Assembly: GCA_946480785.1 (NCBI GenBank)
Contig: CAMLLD010000007.1
Coordinates: 38,473-102,472 of the forward strand
Source of the DNA: an uncultured Blastocatellia bacterium
Lineage (GTDB): Bacteria; Acidobacteriota; Blastocatellia; Pyrinomonadales; Pyrinomonadaceae
Reading direction: 5' to 3'
DNA: 64,000 nt
Shown here: positions 15,168 to 32,700 of the stretch, one piece after another
Layout: each line of letters starts with the position of its first letter
How positions within the stretch are numbered: position 1 is the stretch's first letter
The notes under the pieces: model-generated
Database searches by the model: none
Told to the model about the DNA's origin: nothing
Seen by the model: the letters and a program-made list of their open reading frames with translations, nothing else
Made by a program: the position numbers and the translations under genes

Positions 15168-16010
15168 TTACCAACCGCCGAGGCCGAAGATGCGCGCGAA
15201 ATTGAGCACGTTCGAGAAGGCGAGCACCTGTTGCACCTTCTTCAGTTTGTTTCCGGGAACGAGGATCTGATCGCCCGGCACGAGGTAAGTCGTGTCGGCA
15301 GCCTTGCCTTTGTAAACGGCCGAGACATTTACCGGAATCTGCGCCAACACGCCGTTCTGGCCGCGGCGCAGCACGGTGACCTTACTCTTGTCGCCGGTGC
15401 CCAGCACTCCGCCGGCTTCCGCGATTGCTTCGGTGACGGTCATGCGGTGACTCATCAGGCGAACGCCGGGTTGCGCCACATCGCCGACGATGCTGTAACG
15501 ATAAGATCCGGCTTTGTCGATCGAGACGGTCACTTGCGGATCGATGATGAACTCGTCGTATTTCTTCTTGATGACCTCGGCCACTTCGTCGACGGTCTTG
15601 CCGTTAACGAAAACGCCGCCCGGAATGAGCGCCAGCGAAATGCGGCCACTCGGCGGAACCGTGACGCCGGAGCGCGAATACCGCGGCTGATTGAAGACCT
15701 CGATCGAAATCACGTCTTCCGGTCCCAGCTTGTAGGTGCTGAAGAAGTTGTTGTAGTACGGATCGATCGCGGCGGCTTCCGACATCTGCTCTTTGCGATT
15801 AGCGGTGATGTCGTCGGAAACATCCGAGGGCGGGCGCGATGTATCGTCCGGCTCGAGCCGATCGGTGTTGCCGGCGGGCTTTTGCGCCGTCGTTGTCGTG
15901 CGCGGCCGCGCCTTTTGCTGATCGTCCTGCGTCTGGGCCGCGCTGCTGATCGCTGCCGCGATTAGGACCACTACGATTCCCAACGCCGTCAATTTGTCGT
16001 TCTTCTTCAT
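15168..16010 (-). CDS. Polysaccharide export protein, Wza/SLBB type
   Basis: Periplasmic/outer-membrane component of the EPS export channel. The 280-residue protein has a signal peptide ('VVVLIAAAISSAAQ'), a disordered Thr/Pro/Asp-rich part (about 30-75), the poly-export domain ('YKLGPEDVISIEVFNQPRYS'), and an SLBB domain ('YSIVGDVAQPGVRLM', 'TVTEAIAEAGGV'), ending 'LVPGDQILVPGN'. I see no lipobox and no Wza-type C-terminal amphipathic barrel helix of usual length, only a short hydrophobic tail. ATG at 16010 is chosen because GGAGG lies 9 bases upstream; a TTG at 16022 is inside that Shine-Dalgarno region. It is 24 bases after the sugar transferase gene. Confidence 0.88.
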   Translation of the reverse strand: MKKNDKLTALGIVVVLIAAAISSAAQTQDDQQKARPRTTTTAQKPAGNTDRLEPDDTSRPPSDVSDDITANRKEQMSEAAAIDPYYNNFFSTYKLGPEDVISIEVFNQPRYSRSGVTVPPSGRISLALIPGGVFVNGKTVDEVAEVIKKKYDEFIIDPQVTVSIDKAGSYRYSIVGDVAQPGVRLMSHRMTVTEAIAEAGGVLGTGDKSKVTVLRRGQNGVLAQIPVNVSAVYKGKAADTTYLVPGDQILVPGNKLKKVQQVLAFSNVLNFARIFGLGGW

Positions 16011-16034
16011 CTCCACCTCCAAAGCCGCGAACGA

Positions 16035-17423
16035 TCACTGGGCCCCACGGCCAAACAGAATGATCTTCACGGTCTCAAACAAAATAATTGCATCGAAGAC
16101 CAGCCCGTGATTTTTGATGTAGAACAGGTCGTATTGCAGCTTCTGCCGCGCGTCTTCGATGGATGCGCCATAGGGATACTTGATCTGCGCCCAACCGGTG
16201 AGTCCGGGCGCAATCAAATGGCGCTGTTCGTAATAAGGGATCTCTTCAGCCAACTGCGCGACGAAATGCGGCCGCTCAGGGCGCGGGCCGACGAAATTCA
16301 TTTCGCCTTTGAGAATGTTCCAGAATTGCGGAATCTCGTCGATGCGAATCTTGCGAATGATGCGGCCGACGCGCGTCGTGCGGTCGTCGCCTTTCTGCGC
16401 CCAAACCGGTCCTTCTTTCTCGGCGTCAACCCGCATCGAGCGAAACTTCGTCAGGACAAACGGCCGTCCATTTTTACCGACGCGTTCCTGCTTGTAGAAG
16501 ACTGGACCACGGGATTCGAGTTTGATGAGGATCGCCGTCACGATGATAATCGGCAGCGCGAGCAGCGTGCCGATCAAAGCCGCGAGACGATGCACTGCGG
16601 TGCGCGCGAACGAAGCGAATCGTTTTTGCCGTCCCGGGCCCGTAAAGATCAACCACGACGGACGAATCATGCTCAGCGAAACGCGCCCGGTGATGCGCTC
16701 GTAAAACGCGGCGCCTTCTTCAATCGAAACACTGCCGGTCAAACTCAGTTGCAGCAGTTTGTCAGTCGGAAATTGTCCGCGACGCTCGCCCATCGCCACG
16801 ACGATGCGATCGACGTCTTCACGCGCGACGATCTCGCCGAGCTCGTCGGTCAAACCGATCACGCGGGGATTGATCAGGCTCTTGCCGAGTAGTTCGGAAT
16901 CAGTGCCGATGAAACCGACGACGCGATAACCCGCGTCGGGCCGGCTCAAAACTTCACGCGCGACTTCCACCGCGGCGTCGCCCGAACCAACGATCAGGAT
17001 GCGTTCGCCGAAACCCGGATGGCCCAGCACCCAGTGAATCGACACGCGCCACGCGACCATGAACGTCAACGCGAGCGGCAACGCGATTAGCGCGATGCTG
17101 CGACCTAGCATCAACGGCGAATAGAAGTAGAAAGAGAGTGCGAGCGCGATCCAGGCGAGACCGAGTGCCTGCACGAGCCGCAACACGAGCTCGCGGCGAT
17201 CGTGCATCACGACGAAGTCGTAGAGATCGAAGAGATAGAAAGCCGCGATACAAAAACCCGTCGCCACGCCGGCTTTCCAGTAGGCGTGCTTCATTACAAG
17301 CTCGTAATAAGCGTTCACGGCGCCGACGCGCAGATAGACCGCGGCGATGATCGCCACGTAGACCAGTGCTGCTTCACCGAAAAGCAGCAGCAGGGTGCGC
17401 CCATTTAACCGGAGCACTCTCAC
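16035..17423 (-). CDS. Polyprenyl-phosphate sugar-1-phosphate transferase (initiating EPS glycosyltransferase, EpsB-like)
   Basis: Starts each repeat unit by moving a hexose-1-phosphate from a UDP-sugar to undecaprenyl phosphate at the inner membrane. The 462-residue protein has four or five N-terminal membrane helices (to about residue 125), a Rossmann-like domain ('ERILIVGSGDAAVEVAREVL'), a further hydrophobic helix (about 282-302), and the C-terminal catalytic domain with FKQERVGKNGRPF-like 'FYKQERVGKNGRPFVLTKFR', 'RIDEIPQFWNILKGEMNFVG' and 'RHLIAPGLTGWAQI'. This layout is that of the sugar transferase tied to exosortase systems. It starts with GTG overlapping the stop of the kinase gene (GTGA). 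Confidence 0.92.
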   Translation of the reverse strand: MRVLRLNGRTLLLLFGEAALVYVAIIAAVYLRVGAVNAYYELVMKHAYWKAGVATGFCIAAFYLFDLYDFVVMHDRRELVLRLVQALGLAWIALALSFYFYSPLMLGRSIALIALPLALTFMVAWRVSIHWVLGHPGFGERILIVGSGDAAVEVAREVLSRPDAGYRVVGFIGTDSELLGKSLINPRVIGLTDELGEIVAREDVDRIVVAMGERRGQFPTDKLLQLSLTGSVSIEEGAAFYERITGRVSLSMIRPSWLIFTGPGRQKRFASFARTAVHRLAALIGTLLALPIIIVTAILIKLESRGPVFYKQERVGKNGRPFVLTKFRSMRVDAEKEGPVWAQKGDDRTTRVGRIIRKIRIDEIPQFWNILKGEMNFVGPRPERPHFVAQLAEEIPYYEQRHLIAPGLTGWAQIKYPYGASIEDARQKLQYDLFYIKNHGLVFDAIILFETVKIILFGRGAQ

Positions 17424-18538
17424 TGAACGATTGCGACCTCCTCTTCCGGATGACCGCCGGGCAGCGGCGAGCCGTTGCCGTTGGTCTTGTCGGCCTGAAC
17501 TTCAGCGTCGCGTTTTGAATAGCGATACTGGTAGTAGTAGCTCGTCGCCTCGGGTTGTTCTTCAGCGCGATTGAGCACGACGCCGAGCACACGCTCGCGC
17601 GGAATCTGCTCGAGCAGTTTGTCGACGACGGAGTAACGTGTTTTGCCGGCGCGTACGACAAGCATGGCACCATCGGCGCGACTCATCAGTACGTTTGCGT
17701 CCGTAAAGATGCCGAGCGGCGGCGCGTCGATGATGATGTAGTCGAACATGCGGCGGGCTTCGTTGAGCACGCGCGTGTATTTCGGACCGGAAAGAAGTTC
17801 GGCGACGTCGTCGCGCGGGCGTCCGCCGGGCAGCAGGTAAAGACCGGCGGGATCGAGCCGCACGATGGCGTCTTCGAGGCTGATCTGATCGCCGAGCACT
17901 TCGGAAAGACCGACGGGCGCTTCGATGCCGAAGTAATCGGTGGCGCACGGGCGGCGCAGGTCGCTGTCGATCACGAGCGCGCGGACGCCGTCCGTTTGGG
18001 CCAAAAGCCAACCGAGATTCAACGCTGTCAGAGTCTTGCCTTCGCCCACGCCGGCGCTGGTGATGACGAACGCGCGCATTTGCATGCGCTCACCGGCTTG
18101 GAGGATGCGCGTGCGCAGCGAGCGAAACTGTTCGCAGTAGGCGGAACGCGGCTGGCTAATCGCGACAAGATGTGGTTCGACGCGCGCAGGAGAAATGTCA
18201 TAGCTGACAAATCCTCCGGCGCGCGTCGCCCCGGCAGCGTCCAAAGTTGCCCCAGCATCACGCGAAGCAAATCCGGCGGGGAGTGCCGACCCGTCGGGTA
18301 CATCCGCAGTGTGCGCAGAGGACGCTGAAGTGTGCGCCGCCTCTTTCGAGGCCTCTTTCGAGATGGCCATGATGGTTGAGGAGGCGAATAGCTGCTCCTC
18401 GACCTCTTTGGCGGAAGGCGAGCCGGCGATGCCGGATCCTTCGCTACGGCGCTCGGGATTCTTTGGTGTTGGTCGTTTAGCCGCGTTGCCGTTATCAGCA
18501 GCGCTGGTTTTTCTAATCGCGTCGAATACTCTTCCCAT
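17420..18538 (-). CDS. Exosortase-linked tyrosine autokinase (CpsD/CapB/BY-kinase type)
   Basis: Cytoplasmic ATPase that autophosphorylates on a C-terminal tyrosine cluster and cycles EPS assembly together with the Wzz protein. In the 372-residue protein a low-complexity N-terminal part (1-125) precedes the P-loop domain: Walker A SAGVGEGKT (161-169), Walker A' ALVIDSDLRRP, Walker B YIIIDAPPLG. The C-terminal tyrosines are seen in 'TSYYYQYRYSK'. The partner Wzz-type protein is encoded separately two genes upstream, as in Gram-positive style split systems and XrtA operons. The stop overlaps the start of the sugar transferase by four bases. Confidence 0.92.
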   Translation of the reverse strand: MGRVFDAIRKTSAADNGNAAKRPTPKNPERRSEGSGIAGSPSAKEVEEQLFASSTIMAISKEASKEAAHTSASSAHTADVPDGSALPAGFASRDAGATLDAAGATRAGGFVSYDISPARVEPHLVAISQPRSAYCEQFRSLRTRILQAGERMQMRAFVITSAGVGEGKTLTALNLGWLLAQTDGVRALVIDSDLRRPCATDYFGIEAPVGLSEVLGDQISLEDAIVRLDPAGLYLLPGGRPRDDVAELLSGPKYTRVLNEARRMFDYIIIDAPPLGIFTDANVLMSRADGAMLVVRAGKTRYSVVDKLLEQIPRERVLGVVLNRAEEQPEATSYYYQYRYSKRDAEVQADKTNGNGSPLPGGHPEEEVAIVQ

Positions 18539-18578: not shown

Positions 18579-19502
18579 TTAGCTCTCTTTCTCCACGGCC
18601 GTGCCGGCGGCCCACAGTTCCGCTTCGCCCGCGGGCGAGAAGATCTTGGTGGGGGCCTCGCGTTCCACCGCCGTCGGCATGCCGGCGTTCTGGCGCGGCA
18701 ACATGTCGAAGGTTTCCGCAACCTCCTCGATGATTGCCTTGCTGATCACTTGCTCGCCGGCCGCGTAACCCGCCAGCAACGCGTTGTCGCAAAGGTTGTT
18801 GATGTTGCGTGGAATACCTTCGGAACAACGGAAGATGAAGTCCACCGCCGCCGGCGAAAAGATGTCGGTGCGTTCGGCGCCCGCCACCAGCAGCCGCGAA
18901 ATGATGTAACGGTCGGTTTCCTCGACGTTCGGCAAAGCCTTGATCACGCAACGCAGCGCGATGCGCTGTTTGAGCTGGCGCAGGTCGGGGTTGTTGAGCA
19001 CTTCGCGCAACTCCGGCTGGCCCGTCAACACGATCTGCAACTGCTTCGCCGTGTTTGATTCGAAGTTTGACAACAAGCGGATCTCTTCGAGCACGTGCGC
19101 CGATAAACCCTGCGCTTCGTCGACGATTAGCACGGTCCGCAAACCGCGCGAATGTCTCGACTCCAAAGCCCGGCCCAACTCCAGCAACAACTCCGCTTTC
19201 GTTTCCCACTTCTGCACGTCGAGCAACGAAGCCACGTGCTGGTAAAACTCGGGCACTGACAAACGCGGATTGAAGATGTAAGCAACGAGCACGGTGCGGT
19301 CCAGGCGCTGCATCATCCAGCGCAGGATCGTCGTCTTTCCCGTGCCGACTTCGCCCGTCACGACGACCAGTCCCTTACCGCTCTCAATGCCGTAGTGCAG
19401 GTTGGCCATCACTTCCGTGTGCGACGGAGTGAAGTAGATAAAGCGCGGATCGGGAGTCAGCGCGAAAGGTAATTCTTTTAGTCCGTAAAATTCTGCGTAC
19501 AC
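18579..19502 (-). CDS. ExeA-like AAA ATPase of the exosortase/EPS operon
   Basis: Predicted cytoplasmic ATPase typical of XrtA operons; its exact step is not known. The 307-residue protein begins MYAEFYGLKELPFALTPDPR, the family's standard opening, then Walker A GEVGTGKTT (about residues 50-58), Walker B TVLIVDEAQGL and the sensor region 'IVLTGQPELREVL', followed by 'QRIALRC' and a winged-helix-like end. The acidic C-terminal 40 residues are low complexity. The start is GTG at 19502 with GGAGG 10 bases upstream. It lies 25 bases after the Wzz gene and 40 before the kinase. Confidence 0.9.
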   Translation of the reverse strand: MYAEFYGLKELPFALTPDPRFIYFTPSHTEVMANLHYGIESGKGLVVVTGEVGTGKTTILRWMMQRLDRTVLVAYIFNPRLSVPEFYQHVASLLDVQKWETKAELLLELGRALESRHSRGLRTVLIVDEAQGLSAHVLEEIRLLSNFESNTAKQLQIVLTGQPELREVLNNPDLRQLKQRIALRCVIKALPNVEETDRYIISRLLVAGAERTDIFSPAAVDFIFRCSEGIPRNINNLCDNALLAGYAAGEQVISKAIIEEVAETFDMLPRQNAGMPTAVEREAPTKIFSPAGEAELWAAGTAVEKES

Positions 19503-19527: not shown

Positions 19528-21159
19528 TTACGCGCGTCCCGACGACTGCGACAGGATTTCAAAAACGTGAGTGAGTTTGAGGGCCAGAATGAGCAGCGGA
19601 ATACTGATCACTGTAGCTACCATTCCCGCCGCCAGCAGTAAACGCCGGCGACGCGGAATCGCGCGCGCTTCCTGCGGCGTCAGCAGCTCAGGCACGGCAA
19701 TCAGCACGGGCAAACCGGTGTAGTGGCGTGCGTCTTCGCTGTTTTCGATCGTCAGCAGACGCGGAAACTCGAAGAGCGCCGTCAGAAACAGCCCGAGACC
19801 CAGGCCGGCAACAACACCCATCACCGCCAGCATGAGACGCTTCGGCGCAACCGGGTCCTGCGGCAGGTTCGCGGGGTCGACGACTACGATGCTCTCGCTT
19901 TGTTGCTGGGAGGCGGCGTCGACGCCGAGCGAAATCTTCTGTTGCTGATCGAGCAGTTTGTCGTAAGCGGCTTTCTTCGTTTGGTATTCGCGTTCGATCG
20001 CGCTTAGTTGGACGTCCGCGCCTGGGACCTTGTTGATTCGCTCAGTGATCTGCGCGATCTGCTGTTCGCTGTCGTCGAGCATTTTCTGTTGCCGCTTCAT
20101 TTCTGAATCGACATTCTTCATCTCCGCTTCGATCGCGCCCGCTTGCATGTCGGGCATGCCCTCCAGCTTCTTCGCTCGCTCGGCGATGCGTTCTTTCCAC
20201 TCAGCGATCTGCTGATCCATTTCCTTCTGCACGGACTCGATCTGTTCTTTCTTGGCGATCACATCGGGATGGTTGTCCTTGTACTGCGTTTGCAACTGGC
20301 GCAGTTCGGCTTGCAGGTCGGCTTTACGTTTTACCAGTTCAGCCCAACCCATGGTCGTCTTGGGATCCGTCGTGTTCTCAGCGATGGTTTCCTTGGTTTG
20401 CTCGGTCTGTTTTTTAACGAGCGATAGCTGCGTCGCGAGGGTGGACCGGCGATCCTGCAAACGTCCGACCTCGGCGATGAGTGCTTTCTGTGATTCGCGC
20501 AGGCCTGTTAATTGGCTCAGGAGCGAGCTCGCTTCCGAAGGCAGAGTGCCGATGTTTTGCTGCATGAAGTCGAGCCGCTTCTGATCTATCTTGTCGAGTT
20601 CTTCTTTAGTTTGCGCGACCTGTGCGTCGATAAAATTCTTCGCTGAAACGCCGGAGTTGATCGTGGCGCTGGTCTGTTCGTTGATGTACTTGCTGGCCAG
20701 CTCCGTCGTCACTGCCTGCGTGAGTTTCGGATCGCGATAGCGATATTTGATATCGAAACCGTCGGTGATGTCGCGACGGCTCGTGTTGACCTGGACGTCG
20801 ATGTCGTGGCGCATGATGCCGATGATCGATTCCATCGCTTCACCACGCTGACGCTCTTTCGCGTAGAGGTCGTATTTTTTGACTAGCGGTTCGAGCGAAC
20901 TGCGGCTGGTTACGACTTGCGCGATGCTCGAGAGTTGTCGCGTCAAAGTGTCTTCATTGACAGTGGGAATGACGCTTTCCGGAAGCGTCGCGGGTTTCAC
21001 CACGATGAGCGTGCTCGACTCGTAAACGTTCGGCAGCCGCAACACGACCCAGCCTACGGCTGAAGCGACCGCGATGACTGGAAGAATGATCAGCCACTTA
21101 CGTCGCTTGAGGATCTTCAGGTATTCACCGGGGGTTCGTTGCCGAAATTGAACGCTCAT
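19528..21159 (-). CDS. EPS chain-length determinant, Wzz/GNVR family (XrtA system)
   Basis: Inner-membrane polysaccharide co-polymerase that sets chain length and contacts the tyrosine kinase. The 543-residue protein has a first membrane helix near residues 19-38 ('RKWLIILPVIAVASAVGWVV'), a periplasmic Wzz domain, a long coiled coil (about 190-400, rich in K/E/Q, e.g. 'MDQQIAEWKERIAERAKKLE'), a GNVR-type stretch ('EREYQTKKAAYDKLLDQQQ') and two C-terminal hydrophobic segments (about 435-455 and 505-530). ATG at 21159 has AGGAG upstream. No kinase domain is fused; the kinase is a separate gene. Confidence 0.9.
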   Translation of the reverse strand: MSVQFRQRTPGEYLKILKRRKWLIILPVIAVASAVGWVVLRLPNVYESSTLIVVKPATLPESVIPTVNEDTLTRQLSSIAQVVTSRSSLEPLVKKYDLYAKERQRGEAMESIIGIMRHDIDVQVNTSRRDITDGFDIKYRYRDPKLTQAVTTELASKYINEQTSATINSGVSAKNFIDAQVAQTKEELDKIDQKRLDFMQQNIGTLPSEASSLLSQLTGLRESQKALIAEVGRLQDRRSTLATQLSLVKKQTEQTKETIAENTTDPKTTMGWAELVKRKADLQAELRQLQTQYKDNHPDVIAKKEQIESVQKEMDQQIAEWKERIAERAKKLEGMPDMQAGAIEAEMKNVDSEMKRQQKMLDDSEQQIAQITERINKVPGADVQLSAIEREYQTKKAAYDKLLDQQQKISLGVDAASQQQSESIVVVDPANLPQDPVAPKRLMLAVMGVVAGLGLGLFLTALFEFPRLLTIENSEDARHYTGLPVLIAVPELLTPQEARAIPRRRRLLLAAGMVATVISIPLLILALKLTHVFEILSQSSGRA

Positions 21160-21207: not shown

Positions 21208-23601
21208 TTACAAAGTCGCGAGGGCTTTCTTGGCTTCCTCTGCGTCAGCGAAAGGTTTCTTCTCGGCGAGACGTAGCGCCGCTTCGAGCTCGCGGCGTGA
21301 ACCATCCTTATCGCCTTTTCCTTTCAAAGCCATGCCGAGATGGTAGCGATAAGTTGCGCTCGGCACTCCGTTCATCGCGCGCGCCGCCGCTTCGTCGAGA
21401 TTGACTGCTTTTTGCAACTGCTCAACGGCTGCCGCATACAGGTTCTTCTTGTAGTAAACCCAACCGAGCGTGTCGGCGTAGCCGGCCACGTCCGGATTTC
21501 TCTGGACCACTGACTGCGCGAGTCGCACGGCTTCATCGGGATTGCCTTTGCCGACCGCAGCCCACATCCAGGCAAGATTGTTTCCGGCGATGGAGGCATT
21601 CTGATCCAGCTCCAACGCTTTGCGGTAATTCTGCTCGGCGGCGTCGTAGTTCTGACGTCCGTCTTCAAGCATGCCGATCAACGTGTAGACCGACGGATTG
21701 TCGGGCCTGATGGCGAGAATCTTTTTGTACTCGGCAATCGCGCGATCTTCCTGCTTCGTGCTGATGAAGATTGCGGCGAGCGCTGAATACGCGCGCAAGT
21801 AATTCGGATCGATTTCCAGCGCGCGGCGGTACTCGGCTTCGGCAGCCTGCGCGTTGCTTTGGAACCCGTAAACCTGTCCCTTCAGGAAGTGAAGCCAGGC
21901 AACATTCGGATACTGGCTCAAGGCCTGATCGACGCGGCTTTGCGCCTTGTCGAGTTCCTTGTTGCTTGCATACTGCCGGGTCAATCCGTCGAGCGCGATG
22001 AAGTTAGTGGCGTCGACGCTAAGCGCGTTCTCAAACGCCGCTATCGCATCCTGCGGTTTGTTCTCCGCAATCGCCGTGAAAGCGAGATTGTTGTAGACGT
22101 TTGGATCGCCCGGCGCCATCTGGCGGGCGGTTTCAAAGTCCTGACGCGCGGCCGGGAAATTCTTCTCCTGAATTTGCGCCGCGCCGCGAGCGAGATAAGA
22201 CTTTTCCGCCAGTTCGGCGAGTTGCGCCGCTGAGATGTCGCGATCCGGCGTCGCCTTGCTCAAACGACCGAGTAAGTCTGTGGCCTGAGCAATCGTCAAC
22301 TTCGAGTTTCCGCTCGACATCGTGACCTGCAAAGTCATCGCCTTCGCCGGAATGAAGTCCGAATAGTTTCTTTCCAGTTCACCAGCGAACGAGCGCGCTT
22401 TATCGAGATCGCCCAGATTTAAATTTGCCTGGGCCATGTAGTACAGCCCGGCGCGCGAAGTCGGTTCCTGGCGCAACACTTCGTTGAGATCTTCGATCGC
22501 GGCCTTGAGTCCGTTCGGCTGGTTGTCTTTCATGCGGATGCGGGCGCGCAGCAGTAACGCCTGGCGATCGTGCTGGTCCTTTTTCAACGCTTCTTCCATC
22601 TGCGCGGTCGCGCCTTGCACGTCGCCATTCCGCAACAGGATCTCGCCGAGCCGGTAGCGGCCTTCCATGTAATCGGGGGCCTTCGCGAGAATGTCCTTGT
22701 AAATCTTCACCGCCTCGTCCGTACGATTGGTGAAGACGTAGAACTCAGCCAACACCGCCTGGTTTTCCGGCTTCTCGCCGTCCAGTGCTGATAACTCTTT
22801 GAAGGTGTTCTCCGCTTTGTCGAATTGTTTGTTGACGAGATAGAAACTCGCGAGCGTGAAACGCGCGTTGCGATCCTTTGGACCAACCTCGATGGCTTTC
22901 GTCAGCTCCGCTTCGGCTTCCGGCAGACGATTGCCCTGCGTAAGAAACTTGCCGTACTCGGAGTGGGCCAGCGCGGAGTTGCCGTCGATCGAGATCGCTT
23001 TCTTGTAGAGATCTTCGGCTTTATTGCGTTCACCTGTGACGATGTAGAACTTCGCGAGGCTGAGATACGACTCAACTCGGTTCGGGTTCAGTTCGACGGC
23101 GTGATTCAGTTCGGCGAAGGCTTTGTCACGATCGTTGCGGGTAAACAAAATACTACCCATCAGGATGTGACCTTCGATGTTGTTTGGATCGTGTTCGATA
23201 ATTTCTTTGGCGAGGCGTTCCGCTTCGTCGATGAGTTGCGCCTGTCCCTTGCTGAAGGCGAGGTAGTAATTGCCGAGCTTGATGCGGGCGTCGAGATTGT
23301 TCTTGTCGAGATCAACCGTGCGCCGCAGCTCGTCGACCATTTCCGGAAAACGCTGCAGTCCTTCGAAAGCCTGAGCGAGACCCCAATGCGCCGCGGCCAT
23401 GTTGCCGTCGATCTGAAGCGCGCCGCGATACTCGAGCGAGGCTTCCTGATACTTCTGGTCTTTCAGGTAAGCGTCGCCGCGTCTGACGTGTTCGGATTTG
23501 GCTTTCTCTGCGTTCGTGCAGCCGCTCAAGGCGAGGACTGCCAGCAGGAGGACACAAAGGAGCGATGGATAAATGCGGAAACCGCAGCACTCTTTTCTCA
23601 T
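21208..23601 (-). CDS. prsT: PEP-CTERM/XrtA-system TPR-repeat lipoprotein, PrsT-like
   Basis: Large periplasmic TPR lipoprotein found in exosortase EPS operons, thought to support secretion or assembly. The 797-residue protein has a lipobox ALSGC (Cys28) and then about 20 tetratricopeptide repeats to the C-terminus, such as 'AAHWGLAQAFEGLQRFPEM', 'VYNNLAFTAIAENKPQDAI' and 'AWLHFLKGQVYGFQSNAQA'. Length and layout match the PrsT family (~900 residues) but slightly shorter. It follows epsI after 97 bases and precedes the Wzz gene by 48. Confidence 0.88.
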   Translation of the reverse strand: MRKECCGFRIYPSLLCVLLLAVLALSGCTNAEKAKSEHVRRGDAYLKDQKYQEASLEYRGALQIDGNMAAAHWGLAQAFEGLQRFPEMVDELRRTVDLDKNNLDARIKLGNYYLAFSKGQAQLIDEAERLAKEIIEHDPNNIEGHILMGSILFTRNDRDKAFAELNHAVELNPNRVESYLSLAKFYIVTGERNKAEDLYKKAISIDGNSALAHSEYGKFLTQGNRLPEAEAELTKAIEVGPKDRNARFTLASFYLVNKQFDKAENTFKELSALDGEKPENQAVLAEFYVFTNRTDEAVKIYKDILAKAPDYMEGRYRLGEILLRNGDVQGATAQMEEALKKDQHDRQALLLRARIRMKDNQPNGLKAAIEDLNEVLRQEPTSRAGLYYMAQANLNLGDLDKARSFAGELERNYSDFIPAKAMTLQVTMSSGNSKLTIAQATDLLGRLSKATPDRDISAAQLAELAEKSYLARGAAQIQEKNFPAARQDFETARQMAPGDPNVYNNLAFTAIAENKPQDAIAAFENALSVDATNFIALDGLTRQYASNKELDKAQSRVDQALSQYPNVAWLHFLKGQVYGFQSNAQAAEAEYRRALEIDPNYLRAYSALAAIFISTKQEDRAIAEYKKILAIRPDNPSVYTLIGMLEDGRQNYDAAEQNYRKALELDQNASIAGNNLAWMWAAVGKGNPDEAVRLAQSVVQRNPDVAGYADTLGWVYYKKNLYAAAVEQLQKAVNLDEAAARAMNGVPSATYRYHLGMALKGKGDKDGSRRELEAALRLAEKKPFADAEEAKKALATL

Positions 23602-23698: not shown

Positions 23699-24349
23699 TT
23701 AATTCGGGACAAACTCCGGTAAGGCCGCCGCGGCCTGCGCCGCGAGGTCTTTTGCCGACGCCAGCGCCGTCGCTTCGGAATTGCCGAGCGGCACCGTCAC
23801 GCGCACCAGCGCGCCGTCTGAGCGACGCAACCGAACGCTGTCGATAACCGTGTAAACCTTCCCCCAATACTCGCTCGCTACGCTGCGCCCGCGACCCTGG
23901 TACCAGTAGATCATCAGGCTCTTGTATTCACCGTTTTGCAGCACGTACTTGTTCGCATTGAAGCTCTTGCCGTTGGGCAGCGAAATCAGCACCTTGTCGG
24001 GACTCGTCAGCGTCCAGCCCGAGCCGGGCAAGCAGTTCAACGGGCTGTGATACGACGCGCCGTCGCGCTGGCTGGCGTAGTAACCGACGTAAAAATTGCC
24101 TGACGTTCCGTCCGGCCGGCTGAAGTCGCGCAGCAGGTAATCACTCGCGCGCAGTACCTTCATCGTAGGCTCGTCGAGGATTTGATCGGGCTTGCTCTTG
24201 CGCCATTGTCCCACTTGCTCGGGAAAGTTTTTCAACGGCTGGCGGTCCACATGCGCCTCGCCGAGATACGCCCAGGTGTTGACGAGAACGCCGGTTACGA
24301 CGATCGCCACCAGTAAAACCGCAAAACGCACTGCAGACGACTTGTTCAT
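23699..24349 (-). CDS. epsI: EpsI-family exosortase-associated protein
   Basis: EpsI proteins accompany exosortases, often fused to them; they are needed for EPS or sorting but their biochemistry is unclear. The 216-residue protein has one N-terminal membrane anchor (about 8-27) and the EpsI domain: 'QPLKNFPEQVGQWRKS', 'DYLLRDFSRPDGTSGNFYVG', 'YHSPLNCLPGSGWTLTS' and 'MIYWYQGRGRSVASEYW'. The conserved H-S-P-x-x-C-x-P-x-x-G-W pattern is intact. Here it is a separate gene whose ATG overlaps the exosortase stop by four bases. Confidence 0.92.
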   Translation of the reverse strand: MNKSSAVRFAVLLVAIVVTGVLVNTWAYLGEAHVDRQPLKNFPEQVGQWRKSKPDQILDEPTMKVLRASDYLLRDFSRPDGTSGNFYVGYYASQRDGASYHSPLNCLPGSGWTLTSPDKVLISLPNGKSFNANKYVLQNGEYKSLMIYWYQGRGRSVASEYWGKVYTVIDSVRLRRSDGALVRVTVPLGNSEATALASAKDLAAQAAAALPEFVPN

Positions 24350-25365
24350 TCTGTTCCTTCCGCTGACGCCACCGTCGTCGTCGACGTTGCGCCTACTGTC
24401 GCGTGCTCGCGCGACATTTGTGTTACGCGATCGTCCGTCTTAACAACCGCTGTCTTCGGCTTGAAAAAGCGATCGAGCAACCAACCAACCAGAAACAAAA
24501 GCAGAAAAGCGATGACGTAAATGACCCAGCCGGAAAAGGTGTGGAAGAACCCGTCAGCGATCTCCGTGCCGTAATAACGCGACAGGATGCCGGTGCCACT
24601 CACGCGCGAAGCGTTCGTCAAAATCGCGATCGGAACCGCGGAACAAACGATGATCGTCGAGCGCCAGAAACCGTAACTGCGCAACCAGCCAAACGGGCCG
24701 CGCGGCTGGTTTGAATCGCCCGATCGTGGGTGGGTGAAATAAGCAAAGACCACGGCCAGTGTCACGAGGGTCATCAGCGAGCGAATGCCGCTGCACGCCT
24801 CCACCACTTCGAGCTTTTTCGTGTCGAACGAATTGAGTGGTTTCAACTCGATCACGTTGCCCTGCCGCAAGACCGGAATGCCTAGCACGCTCATGGACCA
24901 CACGGCGCAGCGCGACGCAAACAGTTGCAGCGGAAAAGCGATCTTGTTGAAGACGATCGTGGGGATCGGAATCGCGAGTATCAACAAACCCAGCGGCACG
25001 AGAATCAGCCGCAGAAACGCGAGCCCGCCGAAATAGACCACTGTGCCGGCAATCAGCAGCACGAGCGACATCCGCTGCGTGTAGAGCTCCGCGCCCGCCA
25101 CCCCGGTCCACAACGCCAACAAGGCAAACGCGACGGCCAGCCCGCCCAGGAGCACCGAAGGACGAGCCGGCGCCGTCGCAAACTTATCGCGTTGCTGCCA
25201 AAGGATGTAACCGATTAAGAAGGGGACGAGGAGACCGTGCGAGTAGTTTTCGTCAAACCACCAGTCACGCGAGAGTTTCACCAATACCGCGGCATAGGTG
25301 AAAAGAACAGCAGAAATAATGGCGAAGGCGCGCCAGTGATACCTGGCGACGGCCGGGACACTCAT
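24346..25365 (-). CDS. xrtA: Exosortase (XrtA-like)
   Basis: Multi-pass inner-membrane cysteine transpeptidase that cleaves PEP-CTERM proteins and links them to the cell surface. The 339-residue protein has about eight hydrophobic segments and all three catalytic residues: Cys191 in EACSGIRSL, Arg254 in NASRVSGTG, and His275 in FFHTFSGW. A 50-residue hydrophilic tail follows the last helix. AAGGA lies upstream of the ATG. It is the first gene of the minus-strand operon ending at 13004. The call as exosortase is firm; assignment to the XrtA subtype rests on the downstream gene set. No substrate with a PEP-CTERM tail was found in the window. Confidence 0.95.
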   Translation of the reverse strand: MSVPAVARYHWRAFAIISAVLFTYAAVLVKLSRDWWFDENYSHGLLVPFLIGYILWQQRDKFATAPARPSVLLGGLAVAFALLALWTGVAGAELYTQRMSLVLLIAGTVVYFGGLAFLRLILVPLGLLILAIPIPTIVFNKIAFPLQLFASRCAVWSMSVLGIPVLRQGNVIELKPLNSFDTKKLEVVEACSGIRSLMTLVTLAVVFAYFTHPRSGDSNQPRGPFGWLRSYGFWRSTIIVCSAVPIAILTNASRVSGTGILSRYYGTEIADGFFHTFSGWVIYVIAFLLLFLVGWLLDRFFKPKTAVVKTDDRVTQMSREHATVGATSTTTVASAEGTE

Positions 25366-25578: not shown

Positions 25579-28500
25579 TCACGGAACCACAATGCTCGGC
25601 GCATTGCTCCGGCGGCCACCGACGATCAGGGTAAGTTGCACGTTACCCGCGCCGGTTAGTTGCGAGATCACGCGGAAGGTAACCTGATCCAAGCCCGGTA
25701 CCTGGCCTTGAGCGCCAGCAAAATCAACCGGCAACATGAAGGTGCGCCCGTTTGCGAGACGCGCCTCAATCTGCACCGATTCCGCGAAATTCGGTATCGC
25801 GACGCCATTGACCAAAACATCGTTCGTCGTGTCGGAATTGCTGGCGCTGCCGGTGATTCCGGTGGCGAAAATCGTCAGCCGCGTCTGCTTGTCGGGACCG
25901 AAGTTCTGGTCCGTTATCAGGCCGAGACCGGAGGTCGCGAGGGTCTGGTTGTTCACAATCGCCGCCGGGCCGGTTTCGTCATCGGCGAGCGTCATGATGT
26001 GCGAGACGTTATTCTCGATCGCGATCAAACCCTGGCACGCATAGCCGTCCTGCGACGTGACGACGACTTCAGCCGTTCCGGGCTGCACGTCGGCCGGCAG
26101 GTAGAACTTCACCGTCCACGGCGAAGAATAAATCACCGGCACAGCCACACCGCCGATCGTCACGGTGAGCCCGCCCACTTCGTACGGCGGCATACCCGTT
26201 GACGCCAGCGACGCGAAAAAAGTCTGCGACGTCATCGGCTGAATGTTGCCACCGCCGATGATCGCGATCAGGCTGCCCGGCGCGACTGAAGGCACAACCG
26301 ACAGTCCGTAACCGATGTTCGCCTGACCGATGCTAAGGCTCGTTCTCGTACCGGTGACGTCAGCCTCGTCGAGAGTCGCCGTCGAGATGATGCCGGTCCG
26401 CATCAGGTCTAAAGCAACCGCGAGATGCGTAGCCACACGCAGCAGATCGTTCTTGATGTTCGGACTCGTCGCCGCTCTCATCGCGAGACCGTTGCTCGCT
26501 TTGCTGAACAACAACGCGGCGGTGATTTGAGCGTCGATCGCGGGCGCGTTCGCGCCAAACGAAGCGCTCTCGGCTTTGAAGTCGGAGTAGGCCTGTTGAA
26601 TGTCGGCCGTGAGAGATGTGATATCGGCAGCGAGGGCGAGGTTTTCAGTAAAGGTTGCCGTGTCAGTTATAGCGGCATTGTCCACCGTTTGCTGAAGCAG
26701 CGTGCTCGCGTGTCCGCGTGCCTTGTTCACACTGTTCGGTGAAGACGTAACCGTGATCGAAACAGCCGCCGAGGTAGTGGCTTTGCCGTTGTTGTCCGTC
26801 GCCTTCGCCGTGAGACTGTAGCTTCCCTTTGACACGGCCGGCCAAACAACACTGTAGGGCGCGGTCGTGTCGGTTCCGATCAGCGTCGTCCCATTAAAGA
26901 AGTCGACTTTCTTGATGAAGCCGTCCGGATCGCTCGCCGTAGCCGCGAGGGTGATGTCGTTGCCGGCGACGAACGTCGCACCCGTTGTCGGCACCGTCAA
27001 ACTGACGATCGGAAAACCAGTCGCAGGCGCCGGTGTCGGACTTGGCGACGGAGTTGGCGTCGGTGTCGGCGTTGGCGACGGCGTTGAGTTTGCCATGGGG
27101 CCGCCGAAGTAGAGACCACTCACCACCGCGGTCTTGCCGCCCGTCTTGGTGACCACGAACTTAACGCGGCCGTTAACGTTCCAAACCAGATACTGTCCCG
27201 CGTTGAAACCAGCAACCGTGCGGCTGTCGAGTTGTATGTTGGTGACCCAATCGATCACGTCGACGCGTTGCGCGCGGTTGTTGCCGTCCCAATCCAGGTT
27301 GTAGAGCGCGACGCGATGCGGCTGACTATCGCTAACATTCACGTCGATCGTGAAGGATGAATTCGACTCCCAACGCGCGGCCACGCGATCGGTCCCCACC
27401 ATTTTCTGCAGCGCGCGCATGTCGGTCGTGGAAGCAGACCACGTCGGCGAACTGAAGCCGGTGACGTTTACCTGCGCGTAACTCGGATACTTCATCGCAT
27501 CGTTGACGGTGTTGTAGCCGTCGCCGCCGTACAGGCTCTTCCAGCTACCGCGCGTCGTTGTGTCCAACTGCACGAACGCAACACTCGCTGCTGGCGTCGG
27601 CGTGGGAGACGGAGTCGGCGTCGCAACAGGAGTCGGTGTCGGCGTCGGGGTTGCGACTGGAGTCGGTGTCGGGGTCGCAATCGGAGTCGGCGTTGGTGTG
27701 GCTATCGGCGTAACTGTCGGTGTAGGCGTCGGCATTGGCACTGCGCCACCCTGACGCCAGATCAAGTAACGGCCGCCCATGCGGTAATTCTGGTTGTAGT
27801 TCTTCGCCGTCCCGTCCGCTTCGTCGCGGATCGCATCCGTCACATCGCCAAACGCGGCCTCGAACAAGTCGTCGCCCATCGTCTTGTAAATCGGATCGCC
27901 GGTGAGCAAATACGCATAGCCATAGGCACTGAAGATCGTCGAGATGCCTTGCCGTTCCGACTTCACGATCCAATCCTGGTCCGCAGTGGTGTAACTGCCG
28001 CCGCCGTTTTCATACTTCGTCGGATTGACGGTCGTACCGCCGTGATAGAAGTACCAGAACGAGCGCCAACGAATTCCCGGCGCCAGACCAACCACCTGTT
28101 CGTCCTTGCGGTATGGTCCACCCTCGTACAAGTGATGACACGCGCGGGTGATTTGATTCTGAATGCTCGCCCTGACACCGGAGTTGGTGCTCAAGCGATG
28201 CACTTCGATCAGCGAATTCAACAACAGCCCGATCATGAACGGTTGCATGATGCCCTTTAGCAGACCACCGTCCTCATCGACGTAATCGGGATCGTCCCAA
28301 CGCCACGAACCATCCGCGAACTGCAAACGTCCGTAGTAGTTCACGGCAATCGCTTCGACGTCGGCCTGGTATTGCGCGCGCAACGCAGCGCCGTTGATCT
28401 CGGTACCGCCTGCTTGCAGCGGAAACGAATCGGGCAGCGCCTTCGCCAACCACGCCGCATAGTGCAGCGCAAACGCGCCCTCACGCACACCGTAATAAAG

Positions 28501-29115
28501 CTGCGGATCGTTGATGCGCATCTTCAACCAGAGATTGAAATGATAACGAGTGTAGCTGTTGATCCAATCCCACATCTCGGGCCGGCCATCGATCGCGCGC
28601 AGGATCAAGCCACCGATACCAGCATGTCGTGGCGGCGGTCCCTGGCCGTTGCTGAAGTCGCGTTGCGCGCCACTCTGAATCCATTGCGGATGTTTCCACC
28701 ACGCGTCAGCACACTTCTCCGCGTAACCGAGAAAGGTCGGATCACCCGTTCGCTTGTAGCTGATGTATTCCGTCAGCGGCAGATCGTAGTAGTTGAGCAG
28801 CACGTAGTCGTTCAGCGCTGTCGGATCTGTCGGCGGTGTGTCGGGACACGATGCGCCGTGCACCTTTGCTCGCGCTATTTCCGTGGCGTCGAACCACGAC
28901 GTCGATAGCGGCGCCTGTGGGCCAATGATGAAATCGACGTCGTCGAGCGTCGCGGCCGCGAAGAGATCGGGAACCGGCGGCGGCGCAGCGGCGTGTGCTA
29001 ATGAAACGTTCTGTAGTAGAACCGAAAAAACTACGAGTATGAAAACGACGAAACGTAGATGATTTGATTTTAAAACCCTAATCGAACGGGGAACGTGCTT
29101 CGACCTGGTGCCCAT
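25579..29115 (-). CDS. Large secreted multidomain protein: helical-toroid domain, PT linkers, carbohydrate-binding-like and Ig-like domains, Solibacter-type C-terminus
   Basis: Catalytic function unknown. The 1178-residue protein has a signal segment (about 22-42), then an all-helical region (about 60-450) with aromatic motifs ('WFYFYHGG'-like [14 protein letters not shown], '[19 protein letters not shown]') that recur in the divergent protein at 29769. Such alpha/alpha toroids are often glycan lyases or hydrolases. Next come a Pro-Thr linker (about 458-507), a beta domain beginning '[19 protein letters not shown]' (about 510-670, possibly carbohydrate binding), a second PT linker, a bacterial Ig-like domain (about 705-790), and a C-terminal region like the TIGR03437 domain ('[19 protein letters not shown]'). 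ATG 29115 has GGAG 7 bases upstream; GTG 29127 is an alternative. The leader carries two c-di-GMP riboswitches. Confidence 0.75.
27010..27098 (-). repeat. Pro-Thr linker-coding repeat, distal
   Basis: Hexanucleotide-like tandem repeats (GGCGTC/GGTGTC/GGCGAC on the plus strand) encode alternating Pro-Thr/Pro-Ser residues that form a flexible linker between the carbohydrate-binding-like and Ig-like domains. The DNA is likely slippage-prone in whole codon pairs. Confidence 0.75.
27592..27745 (-). repeat. Pro-Thr linker-coding repeat, proximal
   Basis: A longer tandem array (about 150 bases) of the same hexanucleotide type encodes a linker of Pro-Thr pairs broken by Val-Ala and Ile-Ala, for example [18 protein letters not shown]. 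It separates the helical toroid from the beta domain. Unit size of six bases means copy changes keep the reading frame. Confidence 0.8.
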
Positions 29116-29120
29116 TGGAT

Positions 29121-29220
29121 GCTCCACTTCGGTGACCGGACGATCTCTCGTGCTTCGGCGAGAGACTCCTGGCTTTGCGAACCCGCATCACTGCGGGAGT
29201 GCCTTTTATCGGTGGCTGCT
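29121..29220 (-). promoter_or_regulatory. c-di-GMP-I (GEMM) riboswitch aptamer B, proximal
   Basis: Minus-strand RNA shows the GEMM-I core: GATAAAAGGCA, then a hairpin CCCGCA-GTGA-TGCGGG with a GNRA tetraloop, then TTCGCAAAGCC, a second stem TCTCTCG/CGAGAGA, and GGTCACCGAAGTGG. P1 is weak but CCAC/GTGG can pair; its 3' strand abuts the GGAG used by the ATG at 29115, so ligand binding could hide the ribosome binding site. The aptamer is upstream of the secreted toroid protein gene. Ligand c-di-GMP is inferred from the family; a cGAMP-selective variant cannot be excluded by eye. Confidence 0.85.
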
Positions 29221-29420
29221 GCCTGGACCGGCGGATGAAAGCATTACAGGGGGAACCTGTGATCCAGCGGTCGGGATTAGCAGATAGGAACGTGAGTTAA
29301 CGAGATGTTTTTATCTGGATGACGAACTACTGGCGATAGGAATAACGACCCTCAGTCGATAAAGGTGCAGTTGAGAGTCTTCGGCCCACTTCGAAGGGAG
29401 TCACGCGAAGCGGGTTTCCA

Positions 29421-29530
29421 GATCGCCTTCGGCAACCAGACTTTCTCCTCCGGTCCGTCGTCGGCTCGTGGGGGAGACTCTCGGCTTTGCGTCCCTACCT
29501 CGCGGCAGGTTTGCCTTTATCGGTGCAATC
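29421..29530 (-). promoter_or_regulatory. c-di-GMP-I (GEMM) riboswitch aptamer A, distal
   Basis: Minus-strand RNA: P1 GATTGC/GCGATC (one wobble), ACCGATAAAGGCAAACC, hairpin CCTGCC-GCGA-GGTAGG with a GNRA tetraloop, GGGACGCAAAGCC, a second arm closed by TCTCC/GGAGA, then GGTTGCCGAAGG. These are the hallmark conserved positions of GEMM-I. It lies about 35 bases after the predicted transcription start and 200 bases upstream of aptamer B. The spacer contains a long imperfect hairpin (CTGGATC/GGTCCAG) but no U-tract terminator that I can see. Confidence 0.9.
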
Positions 29531-29571
29531 GTTTTCTAAAAGAGCTGGCCTGAGAAGGTGGGGCCAACGAG

Positions 29572-29600
29572 ATTAAACATCGTTCAGCAAGATGTGTCAA
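29572..29600 (-). promoter_or_regulatory. Sigma-70 type promoter for the riboswitch-controlled gene
   Basis: Minus strand TTGACA (29600-29595), 17-base spacer, TTTAAT (29577-29572): a perfect -35 and a 5/6 match to -10 at ideal spacing. Transcription would begin near 29565, giving a leader of about 450 bases with both aptamers before the ATG at 29115. This is by far the strongest promoter seen by eye in the window. Confidence 0.75.
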
Positions 29601-29768: not shown

Positions 29769-32700
29769 ATGTCAGTCAAGAAATATTTCTCTCTCGCAGC
29801 TCTGCTCTACCTTATTTGCGGCTGCGCCCAGTATGCGACAGCTCAAAGTCCGCAAAACGTAATCTGGACGAACGTGGTTAACGCCACGGCGACGGGTAAC
29901 ACGTTACAGAAGACCTCAGGCTGCAATGGCTGTCCCGATGCAGGCGCTACCTCGCAGCAAACCATTACCTCCGGTGACGGCTACGTGGAGTTTACTGTCG
30001 GCGCTCTGACCGGGCAGCGTTTTGCCGGTCTCAGTCACGACAATCCCGGCACGGGCTGGCAGGAGATCGATTTCGCTTTCAGGTTGTGGGGCAACGCTGG
30101 TCCCGGGAATCTGGATGTGGAAGAGAACGGTACTTACCACAATCTCAGCGCGACTTACGTTGTCGGCGACGTGTTGCGAGTCGCGGTGGAAAGTGGTGTG
30201 GTCAAGTATTACCAGAACGGAGTGCTGCGTTACACCAGCACCGTCGCGCCTACTTACCCGTTGATGGTCGATACTTCGCTCCTCGACTCCAACGCCACAA
30301 TAAATAACGCCGTCATTTTTATCCCGTCCAACACTACTCAGAACGTCACCTGGACGAACATCGTTAACGCTACGGCGACAGGTAACACGCTACAGAAAAC
30401 TTCAGGCTGCAATGGCTGCCCCGATGCAGGCGCTACCTCGCAGCAGACCATAACCTCCGGCGACGGCTACGTGGAGTTTACTGTCGGCGCCCTGACCGGA
30501 CAGCGTTTTGCCGGCCTCAGTCATGACAATCCCGGCACGGGCTGGCAGGAGATCGATTTCGCCTTCAGGTTGTGGGGCAATGCTGGTCCCGGGAATCTGG
30601 ATGTGGAGGAGAACGGCACTTACCATAATCTTAGCGCGACCTATGTTGTCGGTGACGTGTTGCGAGTCGCGGTGGAAAGTGGTGTGGTCAAGTATTATCA
30701 GAACGGCGTGCTGCGCTACACCAGCACCGTGGCGCCTACTTACCCGTTGATGGTCGATACTTCGCTTCTCGACTCCAACGCCACAATAAATAACGCCGTC
30801 ATTTCCACCGGCTCCGGCAGTACGAGCAGCACCCTAACTGCTCCGGTCAACGCGCCACGAGCTCATCCACTGGCGCCTAATCCACACACGTCAATTGGTC
30901 TCTTCTGGATCTACACTGACCCGACGACCGGCAGGCAATGGACCGGAGGCACCTACAAAGTTAAGCGTTGCACCGGCGCGAGCTGCACGCCAACAACCGT
31001 AGTAGCAACCGGACTTACCCACGCCGACTATCAGGACACGGGACTTTCTACAAATACCACCTACGGCTATCGCTATCTGGCAAACGACGGCACTGGTGAC
31101 TCGAGCGACTCGCCCATCGTCTATGTCACGACAACAGCGACCGACGACAACATGGTCCATTTCCCCGCCGGCGCCTGGGCCGAGCTGCTTGGGCCACAGG
31201 TCGAAGCCGGCCAGATCCCCTTCACGTGGTACAACTCAGCCGCGACTACAACGGCGCAGACCATCATCTCGAAGTTTCCGGTCGTTGGCCCGGCGCAGAT
31301 AGCCGGTACTGGAGCCATCACCAACGGATCGACGACGCTGACCGGCACGTCAACCTTCTTTATCGAAGAGACTGCCGCCAATAACCCGACCTGCCTGAAC
31401 CACATCATGATCAACGGAGTGGATGCGGGGACGATCGCCAGCATCAACTCGAACACCTCGATCACTCTGACTTCGCCCTGGACCGGCGCGACGACCTCGG
31501 GCGCGACGCTCAGCACGAACGTTCCGCAGTGCAACATCGCCGATCCGATCAACGATTACCTCACCGGCAACCAGTTGATGTACTACGACAGCCCGATGGC
31601 GATGTGGCAGATCTACTTTCGCACGGGCGATCCGCAATATCTGCGCGGCGCAATCAAAGGGAGCGAGTCGATTTTTGCCGGCTACATGTGGCTGGGAAGA
31701 AATCGCGCGTGGAACCTGTATTCGACGACCCAGAACTACGACAGCATGCCCGCGCCCCGCAACTTCCAGTTCTCGGGCTATGTCCTGTTGGGAATGGCCG
31801 GTCACAACGGCGTGTGGGACTTGCTCGACGACTACCTGGCCCAGCGCTATGACACGTGGCTCATTCGCTACCGCGCGGGCAACAACGCATATCAGTACGT
31901 GCGCGAGAAGGCGTACATGATTCTGTTTACGAGTTGGTTCATCACCGCTGCGCCGGATAGCTTCCCCCGCAGCAACGGCACAACTACGAGCCTGAACGGC
32001 ACGATAACGGTGGACGGCTCGCTCGCCTCCGGCCGCAAGCTTTACTACAAAACGCAGCTCGACACCGACGTTCCCGGCTTCATCAACGACGACCAGTTGC
32101 CGTGGGGTTTCTGGACCGACGGCGGCTCAACCAACGTGAGCGGCGACATGGACTATCCGTACACCGGCGGCGATCTCGTCGGTCCATCACAGCCCTTCAT
32201 CCAGGGGTTGAATACCGATGCGCTCGGTTACTGCTGGCGCAACACGGCACTGAACCAAGCAACGCGTGACGCTGCTCGCAAAGAAGTGCTCAAGGGCGCG
32301 GCCGCAATGGGCTTGCTGAGTTACACGATGCAGACGATTCCGAGCGATCCCACGCATCGACATCGCGCCGTCTGGTACTTCTACAACGGCGGGACGCGAC
32401 TCAACCCTTACGCGTTTCAGCACGGTGGCGATGCCTACACGATCGACAACATCCCTTACAACCCGGCGGCTCCGCTTAACCGCGAAGCGATTCCGCTGAT
32501 GCTGTCGACATTCGGCTGGGCAGTGGAAATGGCCGGCGGATCCGACTCGTGGTACAAGCAAATCGGCGACGAGATGGCTAACTCGGCGTTTGCCCAGGTA
32601 GGTGAGAACACTATCGGCAGCGGCGCGGACGGCTTGAAAGCGTTGTGCGATAACACGAGTAACTTTAAGGATTTCGGCCAGTGCTTCCGCACCACCGGAC

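Follow-up and report, generated by a model that had tools for sequence, protein, structure and literature searches.

Tandem c-di-GMP-I aptamers of two subtypes, the second fused to a ribosome-binding site, as a probable leader of an exosortase-type polysaccharide operon in an acidobacterium

Introduction

Why would a bacterium carry, in a single 5' leader, two aptamers that appear to recognize the same second messenger, and which of the genes behind them would such a leader serve? This question is raised by a 64,000-nucleotide (nt) stretch of contig CAMLLD010000007.1 (the window, by which we mean the whole stretch analyzed), in which two tandem class I riboswitch aptamers for cyclic di-GMP (c-di-GMP-I) stand before a gene for a presumably secreted protein, followed by an exosortase gene and genes for an extracellular polysaccharide (EPS). 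As a rule, c-di-GMP promotes matrix production, and its riboswitches are best known from motility, pilus and adhesion genes. Judging from protein relatives, the host would be a Pyrinomonadales-like acidobacterium, apparently of a soil type; among 59 such relatives, both of the organism-named ones are Pyrinomonadaceae. One relative from a named genome collection, locus L001 of Acidobacteria bacterium 13_1_20CM_3_53_8, carries the same aptamer pair before the same kind of gene. An earlier reading of the window, made from its letters alone (the sequence-only reading), had tied the pair directly to one secreted protein and had taken the riboswitch as a clue to the role of that protein's toroid family. 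Having compared the leader with those of relatives, we surmise that it is probably a conserved leader of the exosortase EPS operon, made up of c-di-GMP-I aptamers of two subtypes, with the second fused to the ribosome-binding site and with an exchangeable first protein behind it.

Results

All features are given in window coordinates and lie on the minus strand unless marked (+). Both aptamers are complete, lie within one leader and are the only places in the 64 kb that reach an Rfam gathering score. Aptamer 1 (29427..29524) scores 62.5 bits with RF03167 (c-di-GMP-I-GGC; cut-off 59, E 2.2e-12) and aptamer 2 (29128..29213) scores 48.8 bits with RF01051 (c-di-GMP-I; cut-off 35, E 1.7e-6), which bears out the two tandem aptamers of the sequence-only reading along with the motifs it had quoted, namely GATAAA(A)GGCA, a GNRA-capped P1b (GCGA, GTGA), CGCAAAGCC and GGTTGCCGAA / GGTCACCGAA. 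The check it had proposed with RF01051 was positive for aptamer 2; aptamer 1 was best matched by RF03167 instead, a clan relative of RF01051, and is listed under that model here.

Tandem arrays recur in relatives, as that reading had suggested might be looked for. In an order-wide search of 119 genomes, from the order of the L001 genome, RF01051 matches were found in 79 genomes; tandem arrays, picked by eye among these places (same strand, aptamers within ~500 nt), number at least 21 in 19 genomes, one of them triple, the strict search filters making this count a lower bound. The 21 arrays and the window form our comparison set of 22 leaders, with 44 aptamers aligned (A2 and A3 alignments). 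The aptamers are spaced 143-380 nt apart in the double arrays, and 226 and 461 nt apart in the triple array (L020, genome G086), where by eye a GTGAGG and an ATG follow the middle aptamer and a short gene may separate aptamers 2 and 3. We also built a custom model, R1, of aptamer 2 plus its Shine-Dalgarno from the 22 sequences; it gives 113.2 bits for the window's aptamer 2 and 60.3 bits for aptamer 1, but the window is among the source sequences of R1 and such scores are therefore high by construction. R1, which also matches aptamer 1 and single aptamers, found places in 92 of the 119 genomes and in 44 genomes of a phylum sample (n = 396, genomes of the order included), and added one firm tandem array, L034 (G098), which is accompanied by an exosortase. 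Also beyond the 21 are L033, which is cut by a contig end, and L031, whose second aptamer is weak (34.2 bits). All 12 tandem genomes searched for GGDEF domains, out of 20 known, have 8 to 15 matches each.

The members of the pair are distinct and keep a fixed order. In a tree of the aptamers, two groups formed by position with 0 misplaced (support 0.933), and aptamers from one locus resembled each other to no greater degree (0.61) than aptamers from different loci (0.62), suggesting that the pair is old and that its members have been kept different; a recent local duplication of one aptamer is ruled out by the tree. Aptamer 1 begins GG(C/T)AAAC in 22/22 leaders. In aptamer 2, the internal loop of P1b is altered (GGCACT ... 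GGGTTCGC in the window), with AC[CU] replacing AAA in 21 of 22 copies (GGCAC(C/U)C) vs. 0 of 22 for aptamer 1, a change that perhaps confers another affinity. The consensus of RF03167 reads GACGCGAA, the G of which we take to be the 'GGC' variant base, vs. GACGCAAA in the window; an A stands here in 44/44 aptamers. Because the window differs from the model consensus in this way, the 'GGC' label is no sign of a changed ligand.

Both structures, with their P1, P1b and P2 stems, are backed by covariation across the 22 leaders. For aptamer 1, 97.1% of cells are paired and 9 of 28 pairs show double changes, a number that none of 500 shuffles matched; its P1 (GATTGC, 29525..29530, with GCGATC, 29421..29426; GAUUGC/GCGAUC in the RNA) is paired in 94.7% of cells. 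For aptamer 2, the whole structure is paired in 95.1% of cells vs. at most 41.7% in slid versions, and, taken with the P1/Shine-Dalgarno region, it has double changes in 13 of 27 pairs, which 0/500 shuffles reach. Its P1 is formed by CCAC (29212..29215) and GTGG (29124..29127, pairing with the former from 29127 to 29124), is paired in 89.8% of cells and has double changes in two of its four pairs.

It is this P1 that runs into the ribosome-binding site. The Shine-Dalgarno GGAG (29122..29125), 6 nt upstream of the ATG at 29115, shares two bases with the 3' strand of P1. Among the relatives, P1 is UCAC/GUGA in most leaders, again with two bases common to GAGG, and the C-G pair of the window's P1 corresponds to U-A in 14/22. 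GTGAGG stands directly 3' of aptamer 2 in 18/22 leaders, with purine-rich variants in the other 4, and the start codon follows 10-16 nt past the end of aptamer 2 wherever the start is clear.

The gene behind the Shine-Dalgarno changes from one locus to the next. In the window, it encodes a 1178-residue protein (25579..29115) with an (alpha/alpha) toroid, Big_7 and a TIG/TIGR03437 C-terminal domain; a signal-peptide-like start, as judged by eye, agrees with the secreted target of the sequence-only reading. The toroid was modeled with a pLDDT (predicted local distance difference test) of 94.6, and the matching PDB structures have the toroid fold of sugar enzymes: it resembles AGE sugar epimerases and GH88/GH105 unsaturated glucuronyl hydrolases at the level of the fold, with sequence identities of 5-12% among the matches listed, and the best stretches in a profile search of PDB sequences all lie beyond the toroid part. 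Across the 22 leaders, the first genes comprise 13 that are beta-helix-like, 2 toroid (window, L019), 3 CAP-domain (assigned by Pfam for L010 and L025, and for L016 because it resembles these two), 2 of another type (L021, L022) and 2 unassigned (L012 at a contig end, L017 for its frame). We use the name 'beta-helix-like' only, because the Pfam Beta_helix match (22.8 bits) is under its cut-off of 25.9; a single-sequence structure of this protein had a pLDDT of 45.9 and was not used. Among the first genes scanned, TIGR03437 is above cut-off in the window, L008, L019 and L022 and did not show in L011 and L025; by tblastn, stretches similar to the C-terminal part of the window protein are found in L008, L011, L018, L021, L022, L026 and L027. 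The L008 first gene also has CBM6/CBM35 and that of L011 a malectin domain. From these domains and starts we surmise that the first protein is probably secreted, exchangeable and glycan-directed, working on the polysaccharide of the operon.

A riboswitch specific to the toroid family is ruled out, the toroid accounting for 2/22 first genes. The toroid gene, moreover, stands directly before the exosortase in G115 and G119 with no aptamer found upstream. True toroid matches amount to 8 places in 5 genomes (G001, G093, G114, G115, G119) rather than to the raw tally of 34/119 genomes, because matches weaker than E 1e-70 start at or beyond position 408 of the 696-position model and fall in the linker and other domains. 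Taken together, the varied first genes, the leaderless toroid genes and an exosortase behind the first gene in 11 of the 22 leaders mean that the riboswitch says more on the operon than on the toroid family; for the same reasons we could not retain a direct link to one secreted protein.

The operon itself agrees with the exosortase EPS setting proposed earlier. Behind the first gene lie in a row the exosortase (24346..25365; PF09721 220 bits, TIGR02602 186.2 bits, cut-off 105.55), EpsI/DUF3485 (23699..24349; PF11984, TIGR02914 142 bits, cut-off 42.8), a PrsT-like TPR protein (21208..23601; TIGR02917 307.1 bits, just below the cut-off of 312.2), a polysaccharide chain length determinant (19528..21159; TIGR03007 237.3 bits, below 278.85), a PEP-CTERM system-type ATPase (18579..19502; TIGR03015 265.9 bits, below 324.5), a tyrosine autokinase (17420..18538; TIGR01007 137.7 bits, cut-off 108.05), an EPS glycosyltransferase (16035..17423; TIGR03013 474.1 bits, cut-off 393.35) and a polysaccharide export protein (15168..16022; TIGR03027 86.3 bits, below 180). 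An exosortase and EpsI in a row with EPS synthesis and export genes make this an exosortase EPS operon, with the gene content of XrtA-type EPS operons. Since the exosortase scores 177 bits with the XrtA-specific TIGR03109 (cut-off 208) and TIGR03007, TIGR03015, TIGR02917 and TIGR03027 are likewise below their cut-offs, we call the system XrtA-like and not XrtA; unlike XrtA-type operons, it is headed by a tandem riboswitch.

The count of 11 is made up of 10 of the 21 fetched loci and the window, with L034 in addition. EpsI and the TPR gene accompany the exosortase where the stretch reaches; in L021 only the start of the exosortase is in view, and in L008, L012, L013, L024 and L027 the sequence ends within or shortly behind the first gene. 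In the order, exosortases occur in 85/119 genomes, at 89 places. In an exosortase tree, leaderless and tandem loci are intermixed in the closer part, and two deeper groups (L056-L059 with L066, and L061-L065, L063 being too short to judge) are without the tandem.

Upstream of the aptamers, the near-consensus promoter of the sequence-only reading was recovered as TTGACA (-35, 29595..29600) and TTTAAT (-10, 29572..29577) with a 17-nt spacer, matching 11 of 12 consensus bases. The -35 is exact in 21/22 leaders, the window included, and the hexamer pair is present in all 22 with 9-11 of 12 matches (mean 10.6 vs. 7.7 shuffled); tested singly against its own shuffles, each leader but L018 and L020 was below 0.05 (20/22). 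A simple promoter scan of the window does not list this promoter, because the scan accepts only -10 hexamers whose second base is A. Near the predicted 5' end of the RNA, a hairpin GGCC...GGCC (29547..29565, by eye) has a counterpart at the same place in most of the 18 of 22 leaders that were folded (the window, L020, L023 and L026 being left out), and between it and aptamer 1 lies an NTCTTT motif (29539..29544), with CTTT aligned in 21/22 leaders. An extension of the aptamer 1 P1 by pairing of NTCTTT with a downstream GGAGAAAG was rejected, same-locus duplexes not exceeding the permuted ones (p 0.37), in a test that is weak because both sides are conserved. A search of plasmids with the leader gave zero matches.

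Behind aptamer 1, the predicted fold of the window has a hairpin, CCCGCTTCG...CGAAGTGGG (29385..29414). The hairpin in this place is locus-specific: when the stretch 3' of aptamer 1 was paired with sequence further downstream, that of the same locus gave better pairing than that of other loci (22 loci, permutation p 0.004), with a mean fold-energy z of -1.3 and individual values from -3.4 to +1.5. By our script criterion, an intrinsic terminator lies between the aptamers in 3/22 loci (L021, L022, L025). A looser scan, which gave 3 sites in the kilobase vs. 0.9 expected, finds a weak 5-pair terminator-like site in the window spacer (29358..29346). The best 70-nt C-over-G stretch of the spacer has a G content of at most 0.16 in 20/22 leaders (L009 0.27, L022 0.23), and we would suggest only that such pyrimidine-rich stretches may suit Rho.

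Some further observations concern the same gene families and aptamers elsewhere. In L067 (G114:C808), a toroid first gene follows an aptamer-2-type element with GTGAATG directly behind the aptamer, and no second aptamer was found in 1.2 kb upstream. The window has a divergent toroid gene at 29769-33728 (+), a distant paralogue with 28% identity to the first protein over 403 columns and, by eye, two near-identical N-terminal repeats of ~160 residues each; no aptamer was found before it. Elsewhere in the window, at 33917-35455 (-), a relative of the beta-helix-like protein that is most frequent among the first genes (13/22) lies without a leader, as if the toroid gene had displaced it. In L010, L016 and L025, an open reading frame resembling ispE (by eye) comes after the small secreted CAP-domain protein. 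Single c-di-GMP-I aptamers stand ~250-350 nt before pilM-like starts (by eye) in L035, L036, L040, L044, L045 and L046, making pilus control in the same order possible, and other single aptamers of the order precede small secreted proteins, among others (names by eye). The phylum-sample aptamers L083, L084, L085 and L086 have a different 3' flank; L083, which scores 73.7 bits with RF03167, is a tandem array with a different layout.

Discussion

The predicted promoter, both aptamers, the overlap of P1 with the Shine-Dalgarno and the recurrence of the same leader before differing first genes can be read from the sequences themselves. On this basis we envisage that the RNA would start at the TTGACA/TTTAAT promoter and carry both aptamers, and that binding of c-di-GMP would stabilize or close the P1 of aptamer 2, hiding part of the Shine-Dalgarno in competition with the ribosome. 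We lean slightly towards c-di-GMP lowering translation of the first gene, i.e., an OFF switch, with the downstream genes following to some degree if they are on the same promoter. For aptamer 1, an action by a different route, on transcription or on the stability of the RNA and perhaps via Rho, would seem likely.

Several observations weigh against this reading, some touching the operon and others the direction of the switch. The three CAP-domain arrays of the 22 have other neighbors than the exosortase, and in L007, L018 and L026 no exosortase was found in the 1.7-3.1 kb behind the first gene. When 20 further exosortase loci, chosen as aptamer-free nearby, were fetched from the 89 places, the 13 with at least 4.5 kb upstream showed no aptamer (the other 7 were too short to judge), which rules out a leader on every exosortase operon. 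The window has a gap of 213 nt between its first gene and the exosortase. Along with the tendency of translational control at the first Shine-Dalgarno to be strongest on the first gene, this gap and the six loci without an exosortase in the examined stretch are what would be expected if the leader served the first protein only, with the exosortase genes on their own promoter and the riboswitch tuning one secreted matrix protein. We hold this to be unlikely, since several N-terminal types occur among the first genes and yet the leader and the exosortase block stay constant in 11/22, and since no promoter-like site was seen in the gap by the simple scan, although the main promoter, too, escapes that scan. 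We therefore treat the leader, the first gene and the exosortase block as separable parts and consider the window leader best called an operon leader.

As for direction, an OFF switch runs counter to the usual rule of c-di-GMP-promoted matrix production, and free folding without ligand left little of the Shine-Dalgarno unpaired (mean 0.22), the coding start being a frequent partner. Both points would fit an ON switch, in which the Shine-Dalgarno is hidden by the coding start or a pyrimidine-rich leader stretch and is freed once aptamer 2 folds, with c-di-GMP raising the EPS operon. We regard this alternative as less likely, because pairing with the coding start was no better than with shuffled tails (on average, 0.57 of the shuffles fell at or below the native value) and the free-fold partners vary by locus. 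A conserved anti-Shine-Dalgarno in the coding start is thus unsupported, no conserved second partner was seen given that shuffled tails pair equally, and of the conserved structures, we saw aptamer 2's own P1 alone reach into the Shine-Dalgarno. That one aptamer senses another ligand, e.g., 3',3'-cyclic GMP-AMP (3',3'-cGAMP), to give a two-input gate could be argued from RF03167 being the best model of aptamer 1 and from the AC[CU] that sets aptamer 2 apart, but strikes us as very improbable, the RF03167 consensus base being unlike that of the window. The two G before C22 (G20/G21, in what we take to be Vc2 numbering) do not vary in any of the 22 rows of either A2 or A3, and the equivalents of A47 and C92 are kept in 44/44 aptamers. 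According to PMC9481103, an A replaces G at the selective position of the 3',3'-cGAMP riboswitch (GEMM-Ib), vs. a G in 44/44 of our aligned copies. With these discriminating bases kept, c-di-GMP and not cGAMP is the expected ligand, and both aptamers would bind it as judged by their ligand-contacting bases.

A steeper or two-step response from the tandem pair is possible. A two-stage gate, in which aptamer 1 would act early, in most loci with no intrinsic terminator, at the level of transcription or RNA stability and aptamer 2 would control translation through its P1 over the Shine-Dalgarno, with the cassette being kept under first-gene exchange, is a more specific idea that we put forward as speculative and rather improbable. 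If the two aptamers were opposite in sign and differed in affinity, the operon would be expressed only at mid-range c-di-GMP, as in a band-pass.

Tandem c-di-GMP-I doublets as such are already known: PMC9481103 counts 347 doublets and 12 triplets, doublets being the most numerous same-class tandems, PMC12452182 describes c-di-GMP riboswitches as enriched in tandem, and PMC4759541 describes the triple Bc3-5 c-di-GMP-I riboswitch of Bacillus thuringiensis. The present leaders resemble these in having at least two class I aptamers in one 5' leader, but differ in the distinct subtypes, the fixed order and the fusion of the second aptamer to the Shine-Dalgarno, as well as in having an intrinsic terminator between the aptamers in 3/22 and exosortase EPS operons in 11/22. 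The Vc2 riboswitch of Vibrio cholerae is described in PMC9262584 as a translational OFF switch with P1 as the key; our aptamer 2 would be alike in having P1 decide translation, but in our case P1 itself takes up part of the Shine-Dalgarno. The string 'Acidobacter' occurs 0 times in the main texts of PMC9481103 and PMC12452182, and their collections may still include these arrays; searches for exosortase with riboswitch, and for Acidobacteria with c-di-GMP and riboswitch, gave no such link in titles and abstract starts, with most subscription papers lying outside the search. As far as these literature listings show, three things are new: that the pair is linked to exosortase EPS operons, that its two subtypes keep their order, and that P1 and the Shine-Dalgarno stay fused while the first genes change. 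If our reading is true, it would mean a direct RNA route from c-di-GMP to matrix polysaccharide in the Acidobacteriota, a common soil phylum, and the fixed two-subtype order makes the purpose of same-ligand tandem aptamers directly testable.

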